A model generated the notes under the pieces. That model saw nothing but the letters and a program-made list of their open reading frames with translations. It had not been told where the DNA came from and made no database searches. Below, piece after piece: positions 32,614 through 41,292 of a DNA stretch of 64,000 bases. Both the position numbers and the translations under genes were made by a program. The stretch is from Leptodesmis sichuanensis A121 (GTDB taxonomy: Bacteria; Cyanobacteriota; Cyanobacteriia; Leptolyngbyales; Leptolyngbyaceae): assembly GCF_021379005.1 (NCBI RefSeq), contig NZ_CP075171.1:4836001-4900000 (forward strand), in the 5' to 3' direction. How positions within the stretch are numbered: the first letter of the stretch is position 1; each line of letters starts with the position of its first letter.

Positions 32614-34110
32614 ATGCAGGTAAACCGCCATTCCTTTCCCAGAGATTCTATCCAGTGGACGATCGCCCGTCTGCAAGCTAGCCTGGTCAGGTTGATTAAC
32701 CGACGCACCATCTTGCTATTGTCTATCCTGCTGCTCACCGGGATTGCAGGGACATTGTGGAGTACGTTTCAGTTATCATCCAACCTGATTCAATCTCAAG
32801 CGCTGCAAAACGCTGAGTTATACGCCCAGGCCATTAACGAGGCCCGAACTCTCTATAGCTCTAAAGCCGTAGATCGCGTGAAAACAGTAGCCGGAGTCAC
32901 GATTACCGATAACTATACTCAGCAAGCTCATGCGATTCCAATACCTGCCACCTACTTAATTGAATTGGGCGAAACCCTCAGTCAGCAAAATCCTGGGATG
33001 TCTGTGCGGCTTTTCAGCAACTATCCTTTTGCCAAACGCAAGCAGCAGGGCGGCCCCAGAGATGAATTTGAACGGGAGGCATTACACTTTCTGGAACAAA
33101 ATCCCAAACAGATGTATGTGCGGGTGGAACCTTACCAGGGGCGGTTGGCTCTACGATTTGCCCAGGCGGATATCATGAAGCCCAGTTGCGTCAGTTGTCA
33201 CAATACTCACCCCGATAGCCCGAAACGAGATTGGAAAGTGGGAGATGTCCGGGGTGCCCTGGAAATCACTCGTCCTCTGGATAGTTTCATGGCGAAAACT
33301 AATACTGGCCTGGGTGGTATTTTTGCGGCTCTGGCCACACTCTCCTTGTTGGCCTTAGTCGGGGTGGGTCTGGTCATTAGTCGGTTACGGCAAACGTCCA
33401 AGGAACTGGAATTGAGAGTCATTGAACGCACTGCAGAATTGCGCCGCACCAATCAGAAACTGGCAGAGGAACAAGAAAAGTCGGAACGGTTATTGTTGAA
33501 TATCCTGCCACCGCCGATCGCCCAAAAATTGAAGGATGGCGAAACGAATATTGCCGATGGCTTTGCTTCTGTAACCATCCTGTTTGCCGATCTGGTCAAC
33601 TTTACCGAGTTATCGGAACAGGTCTCACCAACGGAATTAGTCGCCTTGCTCAATGAAATCTTTAGCCGCTTCGATCGCTTAACAGAACGCTATGGTCTGG
33701 AAAAGATCAAAACCATTGGCGATGCCTATATGGTTGTTGGTGGTCTACCCGTTCCCCGTGCTGATCATGCTCAGGCGATCGCGGATTTTGCCCTGGATAT
33801 GCAGCGTGAAATTCAGCAGTTCAACCGGGAGTATCGGCAGGAATGCAGTATCCGTATCGGCATCAACACCGGACCAGTAGTGGCTGGAGTGATTGGTACC
33901 CGCAAGTTCATCTATGACCTGTGGGGCGATGCGGTGAATATGGCCAGCCGCATGGAAGCTCACGGGATTGCCAACGCGATTCAAGTTTCCCAGGCAACCT
34001 ATGAACAACTCAAGGATCAATACACCTTCGAACCGCGCGGACTGATTACGGTCAAAGGAAAAGGCTCCATTTCGGCCTATCTATTGACTGGAAGAAAGCA
34101 ATCGTATTAG
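32614..34110 (+). CDS. Class III adenylate cyclase with periplasmic heme-c DUF3365 sensor domain
   Basis: This 498-residue membrane protein has TM1 at ~33-53, a periplasmic domain of the DUF3365/Tll0287 type, TM2 at ~228-252, a coiled linker, and a class III cyclase domain at ~315-490. The sensor has a c-type heme motif CVSCH at residues 192-196. The cyclase has the metal Asp in FADLVNF, the specificity Lys in EKIKTIGDAYM, and the Asp in YDLWGDAVNMASRME. The Lys/Asp pair predicts ATP, so the product should be cAMP. Redox or gas sensing through the heme is inferred. It may feed Crp-type regulators such as the one at 1809. Confidence 0.9.
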   Translation: MQVNRHSFPRDSIQWTIARLQASLVRLINRRTILLLSILLLTGIAGTLWSTFQLSSNLIQSQALQNAELYAQAINEARTLYSSKAVDRVKTVAGVTITDNYTQQAHAIPIPATYLIELGETLSQQNPGMSVRLFSNYPFAKRKQQGGPRDEFEREALHFLEQNPKQMYVRVEPYQGRLALRFAQADIMKPSCVSCHNTHPDSPKRDWKVGDVRGALEITRPLDSFMAKTNTGLGGIFAALATLSLLALVGVGLVISRLRQTSKELELRVIERTAELRRTNQKLAEEQEKSERLLLNILPPPIAQKLKDGETNIADGFASVTILFADLVNFTELSEQVSPTELVALLNEIFSRFDRLTERYGLEKIKTIGDAYMVVGGLPVPRADHAQAIADFALDMQREIQQFNREYRQECSIRIGINTGPVVAGVIGTRKFIYDLWGDAVNMASRMEAHGIANAIQVSQATYEQLKDQYTFEPRGLITVKGKGSISAYLLTGRKQSY

Positions 34111-37855: not shown

Positions 37856-40231
37856 TCACCTCAGTGGTACAAAGGTGTAACCCTGTTCCCCCTTCTGCCC
37901 CAAGGGAGCCACGGTGATGTAGGCTGGCTGATTCTGGCGATTACCTTTGGCCTGAAAACTAATGGAACCTTCTGCTCCGGGAGTCGAGAAATTGGGTTGG
38001 GAAAGAATCCGCTGGATACCGATCCGGGAGGGATCCTGAGCGATCGCGGCCAGCAACACTTTAGTGGCATCATAGGCCAGCACTGTCCGCCAGGTTACCA
38101 GATTTTCGTGTTTCCAGAGGGCAGAAGCCTGCTGCAAGAAGGGTAATCCAGTGGGATCAACGGGTACGGCCACGACCATGCCGACGGCTTTTTCCTTGGC
38201 GATTCTAGGAACCTTGAAGTTATACATGATGTCGCCTGCCAGCACAGGGAGTCTGCGATTATTGTTTTCAATCACCCGAATCGCCCGATCCATAACATCG
38301 GCATTGGGCACCAGCATCAGTACCTCCGCCCGGTTAGCGATCGCCCGATTCACACTTTCTTCTGCATCAAAATCTGGTCGAGAGAGATCCATTTCATCCA
38401 CGACGGTTACGTCCTGCACCCCGCTATAGTCCAGTGCGTTTCTAAATTCCCTGGTCAGGGATTTACTGTAGCTGTCATTAGGGTTATAAAAAATTGCCAC
38501 CTTGCGCTTGTTCAGGCGGGTCAGCATATAATCTTTCAACGCTTTGGCCGTCTGATTATCCGTGACCATCGTGCGAAAGATGAAATTTCCTACATCGGAG
38601 AGCGGTACGGCTGAACTGACCGGAGCCACCATCACGAGTTGCTGATCCTGATACACTTTGGCCGCTTCGATACTGGTATTGCTGCTGCCATGCCCGACTA
38701 CGCCTAATACCTGCGGATCCCTGGCCAGCAATTCCGCCATCTGTTTGGCAGTTTCCGGTTGGCCATTGTCATCGGCGATCGCCACCCTTAAAGGAACATT
38801 ATTGATCCCGCCTGCCCGATTAATTTCATCCTGGGCTTGAGCCACCCCCCGCAAAATTTCCATGCCTTGAGCCAGAGACGGGCTGTTAACCGGGATCACG
38901 ACGGCAATTTCGTAGGATTTAGCTGTACCGATGCGAGCGTTATTTAAATAAATCAGAGTTTCCGGATCAGTTGGATCTTGTTGACGCGCTTTTTCCAATG
39001 CGGCGATCGCCTGACTGTAATTTCCAGCGGCAATTGCATCAATTCCAGCCTGTTTTTCCGGACTGGACTGCCACTGATTCAGCAAATTTTCTCCCACGCT
39101 GATGCGATCGCTGGCAGTCGCCGCTGTCGTGGAATCCGTCGGTGAAGTTCCCAGCGGTGGAAAAATTCGAGGAGTTGACAACTCTTTGACCAGGGCTGCG
39201 ATCGCCAGAGTCCCCAGCAGGGCCAATCCAATACGAGTCAGAGATTTCCGGCTTCGCGTGGCAGGAGTTACCTGGGTGGAAACGGGCCTGGATTGCAAGG
39301 ACTGGCTTCCTTCCAGGGATTGGGCTGCAGTTTTGTCGGCCAGAACAGTGGGAGAGCTACTGGAAAATTCCCCTGAAAAGTCAATCCTACTCACCAGGGT
39401 TGGAGCTTTGCTAATTACGTCTCGCAGAGCTTCCAGGACTTCACTGGCTGATTGATAGCGGTCTGCGAAGTGATACCGGGTCATCTTGTCAAGCACATCG
39501 GCCAGTTCATCACTGACCTGAGCCTGATCCCGCCAGATCAGTTCAGAGGTTTGGTAGTCTGTCGGCAACTGGGATGGATGCAACCCCGTGAGGGCTTGAA
39601 TCCCCACGATTCCCAGCGAATACAGATCGCTGCTAAACCGGGGACGACCCATACACTGCTCGCTGGCTGCATACCCAGAGGTGTAGACCGGCATACTGAG
39701 ACTGGTATCTCCGGTGGCTTCCACGATCGTGTTGCCCAGAGTCTTAACCGCTCCGAAATCAATCAAGACCAACTTGCTGTCCTGACGGCGACGGATCAGG
39801 TTAGCGGGTTTAATATCCCGATGCACCACACCCTGAGCATGAACAAATTCCAGAATGCCCAACACATCTTCCAGTAAGGGGATCACTTCATCCTCAGAGA
39901 GGCGCACCCCTTTAACCAGTTCCTCGCTGAGCGGATGGCCTTCAATAAACTCCTGTACTAGATAAAACTGATGATTCTCTTCAAAGTAAGCCAGTAGGCG
40001 AGGAATGCGATCGTGCCTGCCCAATCGCTCTAAGGTTTCCGCCTCGGCCTGAAATAGCCGCCGTACCTGCTGCAATACCGCCGGATCATTGCTACTGAAG
40101 GTGAGATGTTTCAACACACAGCGGGGATTGCCGGGACGTTGGGTATCTTCCGCAATATAGGTATGGCCAAAGCCCCCAGAGGCCAGTACATTAACGACCT
40201 TATAGCGTGAGCCGATCAGTTCGCCTATCAT
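37856..40231 (-). CDS. Ser/Thr protein kinase fused to a branched-chain amino acid-type periplasmic binding domain
   Basis: This 791-residue protein joins a cytoplasmic kinase to an extracytoplasmic receptor. The kinase (~7-275) has the Gly loop LASGGFGHTYIA, catalytic HRDIKPANLI and IDFGAV. A transmembrane helix near 330-350 (IGLALLGTLAIAAL) is followed by a TPR-like linker (AIAAGNYSQAIAALEKARQQDPTDPETL). A type I periplasmic binding domain (~440-785) contains GVVGHGSSNTSIEAAKVYQDQ and LVMVAPVSSAVPLS. It should sense a small ligand outside the membrane and phosphorylate inside. The ATG at 40231 replaces an upstream frame that enters a repeat copy. Confidence 0.9.
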   Translation of the reverse strand: MIGELIGSRYKVVNVLASGGFGHTYIAEDTQRPGNPRCVLKHLTFSSNDPAVLQQVRRLFQAEAETLERLGRHDRIPRLLAYFEENHQFYLVQEFIEGHPLSEELVKGVRLSEDEVIPLLEDVLGILEFVHAQGVVHRDIKPANLIRRRQDSKLVLIDFGAVKTLGNTIVEATGDTSLSMPVYTSGYAASEQCMGRPRFSSDLYSLGIVGIQALTGLHPSQLPTDYQTSELIWRDQAQVSDELADVLDKMTRYHFADRYQSASEVLEALRDVISKAPTLVSRIDFSGEFSSSSPTVLADKTAAQSLEGSQSLQSRPVSTQVTPATRSRKSLTRIGLALLGTLAIAALVKELSTPRIFPPLGTSPTDSTTAATASDRISVGENLLNQWQSSPEKQAGIDAIAAGNYSQAIAALEKARQQDPTDPETLIYLNNARIGTAKSYEIAVVIPVNSPSLAQGMEILRGVAQAQDEINRAGGINNVPLRVAIADDNGQPETAKQMAELLARDPQVLGVVGHGSSNTSIEAAKVYQDQQLVMVAPVSSAVPLSDVGNFIFRTMVTDNQTAKALKDYMLTRLNKRKVAIFYNPNDSYSKSLTREFRNALDYSGVQDVTVVDEMDLSRPDFDAEESVNRAIANRAEVLMLVPNADVMDRAIRVIENNNRRLPVLAGDIMYNFKVPRIAKEKAVGMVVAVPVDPTGLPFLQQASALWKHENLVTWRTVLAYDATKVLLAAIAQDPSRIGIQRILSQPNFSTPGAEGSISFQAKGNRQNQPAYITVAPLGQKGEQGYTFVPLR

Positions 40232-40265
40232 CACATTCCTAATGGCGGCAGGTTTTCTCTCTAAG

Positions 40266-40320
40266 CAAACCTTGTCCCAGTCCAGAATCATTTGTTCTTG
40301 GGAAACCCCAGTTTTGTGGC
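40266..40320. repeat. Partial copy of palindromic repeat family A
   Basis: AAACCTTGTCCCAGTCCAGAA matches the inverted left end in short segments (CTTGTCCCAG, TCCAGAA). The right half has decayed (TTCTTGGGAAACCCC). It lies just upstream of the kinase fusion start. Confidence 0.5.
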
Positions 40321-40429: not shown

Positions 40430-40560
40430 TTATGGATTTTGAATTTGGAATTAAAAATTCGGAATTTGGAATTGTCCTGTGTCATTGGTTATCTACTCAT
40501 CCACCCCCCTCTTCCCTAATCCCCACCCCCCAATTCTCAATCCCCAGTTTCCAATTCTCC
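40430..40560. repeat. Low-complexity repeat upstream of endonuclease V
   Basis: GGAATTATGGATTTTGAATTTGG-like units in short form (ATTTTGAATT, GGAATTAAAAATT) are followed by C-rich units (CCCCACCCCCCAATTCTC). It extends the endonuclease V reading frame upstream by 44 codons without being part of the protein. Confidence 0.7.
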
Positions 40561-40563
40561 ACC

Positions 40564-41292
40564 ATGCAACTTCATGTTCTCCATGACTGGAACCTGACTC
40601 CGGAGGCCGCGATCGCCCTGCAACAAAAATTACGCGATCGAGTCGTCCTGACAGATCAATTCGGGGAGGTGCGATATGTGGCTGGGGTTGATGTGGGGTT
40701 TGAAGCGGGGGGTACGGTGACTCGTGCGGCAGTAGCGGTGTTGAGTCTGGAGGATTTGCAGTTGCAGGATCGGGCGATCGCCCGTCGTCCGACTGAATTT
40801 CCTTATATTCCTGGTCTACTCTCATTTCGGGAAGTGCCTGCTGTTCTAGATGCGTTGGAAAACCTTCAGATCGAACCGGATTTGATCCTGTGCGATGGTC
40901 AGGGGATCGCTCATCCTCGCCGGTTTGGGATCGCCTGTCATTTGGGAGTATTAATCGATCGGCCAACTATTGGAGTCGCGAAATCACTGCTGGTCGGTCG
41001 TCATGCCGAGTTACCGGAGCAACGAGGAAGCTGGCAACCACTGATCCACAAAGGCGAAACCATTGGAGTGGCCCTGAGAACCCGCCCTGGCACTAAACCT
41101 GTCTATATTTCTCCCGGCCATCGGATTTCTCTTGAAACGGCGATCGCCTACGTGATGCGCTGCACCACTAAATATCGGCTCCCGGAAACAACTCGCTATG
41201 CTCACAAACTGGCTTCTGGCCCTGCGATCGATGCAGAGGAGGTGGTTCAGGTAGGGAAGACGGCAGAGCAGTTACCGTTGTTTGGGGAATAG
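40564..41292 (+). CDS. nfi: Endonuclease V (deoxyinosine-specific nuclease)
   Basis: Endonuclease V nicks DNA near deoxyinosine and starts repair of deaminated adenine. The 242-residue protein has the catalytic Asp in [11 protein letters not shown], the DNA-wedge [11 protein letters not shown], the metal Asp in [16 protein letters not shown], and [10 protein letters not shown]. Start at 40564 (MQLHVLHDW) matches family length. The longer frame from 40432 runs through repeat DNA and is not credible. Confidence 0.92.

Follow-up and report, generated by a model that had tools for sequence, protein, structure and literature searches.

In the 64,000-nucleotide stretch of Leptodesmis sichuanensis A121 DNA analysed here (the window), one minus-strand gene joins a Ser/Thr kinase domain to a type I periplasmic binding domain. 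Judging from its sequence, we give a probability of about two in three that the product, a single chain, acts as a receptor kinase gated by an amino-acid-like ligand. The periplasmic domain would close on its ligand, probably an alpha-amino acid or a close analogue, and the closure movement would be transmitted through a one-repeat TPR-like stalk and a single membrane helix. On the cytoplasmic side, the Hanks-type kinase would respond by altered association or altered activity, in whichever direction, and would then phosphorylate its putative targets. A preliminary description of this DNA had proposed a single-chain receptor kinase, and that reading is well supported by the anatomy of the protein and by comparative evidence.

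Gene structure, kinase domain and genetic context

The minus-strand frame is uninterrupted over 811 codons (37856-40291), its longest start being the ATG at 40291. Initiation at the ATG at 40231 gives a protein of 791 residues, and a GTG at 40234 is in frame too. We favour ATG 40231 over ATG 40291 because AGGA can be read 5 nt upstream of it and because the alignments of homologues begin at about residues 18-21 of the 811-residue frame. The features are located in Table 1.

Table 1. Location of the gene, its domains, predicted contact residues and neighbour (window coordinates; residues of the 791-residue protein)
Feature	Position	Strand	Evidence
Whole gene, kinase-TM-TPR-PBP fusion, 791 aa	37856..40231	-	frame, start evidence, motifs
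Likely ribosome-binding site AGGA	40237..40240	-	read from sequence
Ser/Thr kinase domain, residues 10-266	39434..40204	-	PF00069 E 2.4e-30; motifs; fold
Predicted single membrane helix, residues 330-348, RSRK just before	39188..39244	-	hydropathy 1.88
Periplasmic TPR-like helices, residues 391-434; conserved cassette begins here	38930..39061	-	TPR_14 25.0 bits; model
Type I periplasmic binding domain, residues 440-791	37859..38914	-	Peripla_BP_6 E 8e-31; Z 39.7
S517, aligns with Ser79 of Leu/Ile/Val-type binders	38681..38683	-	alignment
S540, aligns with Thr102	38612..38614	-	alignment
Y588, aligns with Tyr150	38468..38470	-	alignment
D667, aligns with Asp/Glu226, amino-group contact	38231..38233	-	alignment
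Endonuclease V gene, divergent neighbour	40432..41292	+	Pfam; homologue in 10 fusion-family loci

From N- to C-terminus, Pfam recognises in the 811-residue frame a Pkinase domain (30-286, E 2.4e-30), a TPR_14 repeat (420-449, 25.0 bits, cut-off 23.5) and a Peripla_BP_6 domain (461-794, E 8e-31); ANF_receptor is matched too (1.9e-10). The Hanks-type catalytic motifs are intact (VLK with K41, HRDIKPAN with D139 and DFG with D158). The kinase and the type I binding domain first described in one chain are both found there. The glycine loop reads ASGGFG, without the first Gly, whereas the relatives mostly have GSGGFG or GAGGFG. The genome contains 30 Pkinase matches. An AlphaFold2 model built with 37 aligned sequences has a mean pLDDT of 83.8, mostly above 90 in the kinase and binding domains and below 50 at 282-315 and 324-370; a disordered linker separates the kinase from the membrane helix. 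A two-component system was rejected since Pfam identified no histidine kinase part. PADLOC gave strong matches to several models of the phage-defence kinase PD-T4-6 in the kinase half, the best covering residues 4-278 of 791. The kinase of the two-gene operon described below scores likewise, so the matches may reflect generic kinase similarity and do not decide for a phage-defence kinase.

The endonuclease V gene is the sole recurrent neighbour of the fusion gene (10 loci), and we read this context as a mark of synteny and orthology, not of function. Elsewhere in the window, 32614-34110 (+) encodes a class III nucleotide cyclase fused to a Tll0287-like domain that contains the heme-type motif CVSCH, possibly a heme- or redox-sensing cyclase. 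Most Peripla_BP_6 proteins serve as subunits of ABC importers, and the binding domain could hand its substrate to an importer while the kinase tunes uptake. We regard this as highly improbable: the domain is tethered to the membrane together with a kinase, and a single LivH/UrtB-type permease query revealed no such gene near the fused or stand-alone cassettes examined. This query, run against the frames of loci L001-L179, recovered no homologue besides itself, which argues for a sensor rather than a transporter; Pfam likewise found no permeases among the window neighbours. A plain substrate-binding subunit of an ABC importer was rejected on the same two observations.

Predicted membrane topology and binding pocket

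The most hydrophobic 19-residue segment, SLTRIGLALLGTLAIAALV (residues 330-348 of 791), has a moderate hydropathy of 1.88, and at the same place a helix of hydropathy 1.2 or more is present in 43 of the 44 distinct kinase fusions. AlphaFold2 gave no helix here, its pLDDT being below 50, so the assignment of the single membrane helix, in line with the one initially proposed, rests on hydropathy and conservation. Lys and Arg residues are more numerous before the helix than after it in 38 of the 43 kinase fusions that have it (equal in four, fewer in one). This charge pattern suggests that the kinase lies inside and the binding domain outside the inner membrane. Among stand-alone cassettes, whose N-terminal stub is very short, the signal is weak (30 more, 51 equal and 17 less; n=98).

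Beyond the helix, the model places TPR-like helices at 391-401, 405-418 and 423-434, which are conserved in solo and fused relatives. The "TPR-like linker" of the preliminary description stands as regards the TPR_14 match, while its extent is reduced to one repeat plus one helix, on the predicted periplasmic side, between the membrane helix and the binding domain.

By sequence, the binding domain is nearest to Ala/GABA- and Leu-binding proteins. Its modelled structure matches best the Leu binder 4n0q_B (Z 39.7 over 336 residues, rmsd 2.8), and further top matches are 3td9, 3ip5 (Ala) and an Anabaena amino-acid binder; the closest solved chains bind Leu, Ala/GABA, Ile and Val. The ligand domains of mGluR8 score about 34. 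Comparison with amino acid and urea binders, suggested at the outset as a check, gave 33.5 for UrtA-urea against the 39.7 of the Leu binder, and the model thus points to an amino acid as a more likely ligand than urea. Ligand contacts are expected at positions 79 (Ser), 102 (Thr), 150 (Tyr), 226 (Asp/Glu) and 202 (Tyr/Trp), in the numbering of Liv-type binders. The Ser79, Tyr150 and Asp226 positions are kept as S, Y and D in 41, 36 and 31 of the 41 kinase-linked modules, in 41, 38 and 35 of the 42 stand-alone modules and in 10, 9 and 9 of the 10 STAND modules. Caspase/CHAT modules retain Ser79 in 11/12 cases, with Y at 150 in 2/12 and D or E at 226 in 3/12. Two observations had been named beforehand as contrary to a receptor, a binding domain that is not outside the membrane and one without pocket residues; the charge pattern favours the outside, and S, S, Y and D occupy contact positions.

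The same receptor-kinase mechanism could operate with a peptide, an amide, an aromatic acid or a partner protein in place of a free amino acid. Benzoate, amide and urea binders also match the fold, at Z 33-38. Leu replaces the aromatic residue of position 202 in the window protein and across almost every group, which is evidence against a pocket identical to that of Liv binders, and the loss of Tyr150 and Asp226 from most caspase/CHAT-linked cassettes indicates that the ligand of the cassette has changed before. We consider such a ligand unlikely here, as the Ser79, Tyr150 and Asp226 positions are kept in kinase, STAND and stand-alone cassettes and the top sequence and structure matches are amino-acid binders. 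In other receptors the two-lobed fold also serves to form dimers. The domain could be a docking or dimerisation stalk that has lost ligand binding, leaving control of the kinase to crowding or partner proteins. We find this very improbable, since the joint conservation of the contact positions exceeds the needs of a scaffold.

Conservation of the fusion and a putative sensor cassette shared among outputs

The ligand-gated receptor kinase proposed here belongs to a conserved family. A homologue search covered 58 genomes, the host's own and relatives, of which 35 (own included) are of its family. An intact fusion is present in 27 of these 35, as one alignment in 23 and as two pieces within one frame of 753-770 aa in four, and it is therefore not a chance or assembly fusion. 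Three others have a partial or broken form (G005, G008, G010) and five are without it (G007, G014, G024, G031, G034). Outside the family, one genome among the 58 searched (G051) has the full-length fusion. At phylum level, the C-terminal half is found at E <= 1e-20 in at least 84 of 291 genomes (at most six candidates per genome scored) and the full fusion in at least 5 of 386 (two candidates per genome scored), the latter value being a floor and not a frequency. The window genome yielded no second close copy of the cassette, the next match being 24% identical. The same genome also has, besides this binding-domain kinase, a binding-domain phosphatase: a 924-aa frame with Peripla_BP_5, PAS and a SpoIIE-type phosphatase (L211:1317-4088, C1 about 4961316-4964087).

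Frames exceeding the stand-alone form in length were retrieved, and Pfam was run on 22. The homologous TM-TPR-PBP half follows a kinase, CHAT (L066, L068, L080, L096), caspase (L074, L083), caspase plus nSTAND (L060, L061), AAA_35 (L065) and STAND with TPRs (L091, L092, L097, L089); in L060 there is no helix directly before it. By similarity to these scanned examples, 168 distinct cassettes were classed by their N-terminal part as kinase (44), STAND (10), CHAT (8), caspase (5), AAA_35-like (3) and short (98). This set is not random, for it combines best hits, 40 regions picked for long frames and the best 80 of 558 loci, leaving out distant binding proteins of the own genome (L021-L030) and cassettes with fewer than 300 aligned residues. 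Judged by sequence homology, kinase-, caspase-, CHAT- and STAND-linked and stand-alone forms carry one cassette. Several unusual arrangements were also seen. The 3065-aa frame L061:811-10005 (-) has two caspase matches, an alpha/beta-hydrolase-like region, nSTAND1 and the TPR-PBP cassette; L090, L091 and L094, each in one of three genomes, show paired adjacent STAND-TPR-PBP genes; and L072:911-3814 (+) encodes one chain with two TPR-PBP units and no enzyme domain.

In a tree of 108 cassettes, output labels change at least 15 times, versus 52.6 in shuffles. The kinase label needs six changes, four of them forced by starred branches, and the AU test rejects a tree that unites all cassettes linked to kinases in one clade (p-AU 0.00012). 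The phylogeny advised at the outset places the window protein in a clade of 26 cassettes (100*), 25 of which are kinase fusions. The 26th is L112, where kinase and PBP are encoded by separate frames with a 29-nt overlap (L112:3944-6245); this split fusion gene comes from a low-coverage assembly and may be a recent split or a sequencing error.

Stand-alone cassettes are usually located a short way downstream of a separate kinase gene. Of 558 relatives the best 80 were kept, and 60 loci had at least 1.8 kb upstream, seven too-short loci having been dropped. Among these 60, a kinase gene lies within 1.6 kb upstream on the same strand at 40, including L112; 28 of the kinases are at most 500 nt away and the other 12 have a PstS-like gene between. 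There is no nearby kinase at 18 of the 60; at L145 it is 3 kb off, and L142 was scored as a miss because of start choice only. Unfused kinase frames elsewhere in the same 814 kb number two. In a separate set of 20 stand-alone loci with only 1.3 kb upstream, nine have a kinase. The cassette is usually preceded by an rbcR-like LysR gene, a kinase gene (product about 460 aa) and, in many cases, one for a PstS-like protein (PBP_like_2), and the operon rbcR - kinase - PstS-like - TPR-PBP - PstS-like is conserved across L110-L178 (for example L171:2289-7692). The window genome's own operon (L210:3802-7391) keeps the rbcR, kinase and PstS-like genes without a TPR-PBP gene. Kinase trees, from which short own-genome fragments and then seven long or short rows were excluded, were quick and long-branched, so starred forks alone were used. 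In them, 21 of the 40 operon kinases were placed; 20 of these 21 (all but L112) and one kinase of the window genome form a clade (100*), apart from the clade of the window fusion kinase (99*). Kinase and cassette have thus been paired more than once, in agreement with the AU test. C-terminal hydrophobic helices were present in all but L112 of the 12 operon kinases whose hydropathy was examined. Stand-alone cassettes and PstS-like proteins have unrelated binding folds and a near-identical MSQKNET membrane anchor: the motif scan found it in 53/95 of the former, 32/43 of the latter and 1/632 other frames, and near variants account for many of the misses listed.

Tentatively, and with somewhat less than even confidence, we suggest that the helix, one-repeat TPR stalk and amino-acid-type binding domain might constitute a cyanobacterial plug-in sensor, repeatedly joined to kinases, by fusion or as operon partners, and to caspases, CHAT proteases and STAND NTPases. 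Through one sensor design, phosphorylation signalling as well as cell-death-type effectors could then respond to amino acids or related signals in the periplasm, and MSQKNET-anchored partners would probably dock on the same operon kinase. The homology of the cassette predicts that the ligands of one member should guide the search for those of its kinase, caspase, CHAT and STAND relatives.

Relation to known systems

The fusion of a kinase to a periplasmic binding domain is a known kind, in print since 2005, 2007 and 2018. Krupa and Srinivasan (2005) listed "Kinase + ANF Receptor" for Nostoc, together with a Streptomyces kinase that bears a Gln-type binding domain (PMC1262709). Zhang (2007) tabulated the ANF kinases alr0344 of Nostoc PCC 7120, Ava_2791 and CwatDRAFT_0902 (PMC2176072); in their published architecture, which is what the two papers list, these proteins resemble the window protein in joining a Ser/Thr kinase and a type I binding domain in one chain (PMC1262709, PMC2176072). 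Beyond the 2007 survey, alr0344 or Ava_2791 was named in no open-licence paper found. Bhattacharyya (2018) noted single-chain kinase-SBP proteins and listed 260 "SBP kinases" (PMC6069109). Cyanobacterial caspases with ANF or Peripla_BP_6 domains were reported by Asplund-Samuelsson (2012; PMC3501461) and in PMC8283722; the caspase fusions of the present set share the cassette of the window protein, with a caspase output instead of a kinase and with changed pocket positions. Within the open-licence literature (subscription papers lay outside the scope), we found neither a TM-TPR-PBP cassette shared across kinase, caspase, CHAT and STAND proteins nor the rbcR-kinase-PBP operon with its common anchor. 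As far as searched, then, the shared cassette, the two-gene form with repeated pairing and the common MSQKNET anchor are new.

The preliminary description had likened the layout to eukaryotic receptor kinases, and this comparison needs correcting, as there is no special likeness to them. These have an N-terminal ectodomain and a C-terminal kinase, whereas here the kinase is N-terminal and, from the charge pattern, inside, and the sensor C-terminal and outside; membership was rejected because of the inverted domain order. The close parallels are bacterial: PASTA kinases, actinobacterial SBP kinases and GlnH-GlnX-PknG. The PASTA kinases PknB/Stk1 have an N-terminal kinase inside, one helix and a C-terminal sensor outside, the arrangement predicted for the window protein. 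Their extracellular PASTA repeats are, however, not matched by Pfam here, and NF033483 scores 111 bits against a cut-off of 450. The Leu/Ile/Val- and Ala/GABA-binding proteins (1usg, 3ip5, 4n0q) have the fold and contact positions in common with the window domain at about 20-24% identity, but are free or lipid-anchored transport subunits. The actinobacterial SBP kinases of the MSMEG_1200 type (PMC6069109) carry kinase and solute-binding domain in one chain, as in the window. The marks of SBP kinases and of cbSTKII-ANF proteins are present in it, namely Hanks-type kinase motifs with Peripla_BP_6 (8e-31) and ANF_receptor (1.9e-10) in the same chain. The actinobacterial proteins nevertheless belong to another phylum, and NCBIfam NF052427 matches the kinase part only, with 69 bits against a full-length cut-off of 900.

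The activators of bacterial Ser/Thr kinases are called an outstanding question in the abstract of PMC6069109. With a likely sensor that is covalently attached and of a class whose ligands are directly screenable, ligand, kinase control and targets become testable in one protein. In GlnH-GlnX-PknG (PMC6069109, PMC9769921), a system of three proteins with a four-helix membrane relay, a periplasmic protein that binds Asp/Glu governs a Ser/Thr kinase. By analogy, this system is the best working precedent for the proposed mechanism: the window protein would work like it and is not a member, because it is one chain with one predicted helix. GlnH itself is a different kind of binding protein.
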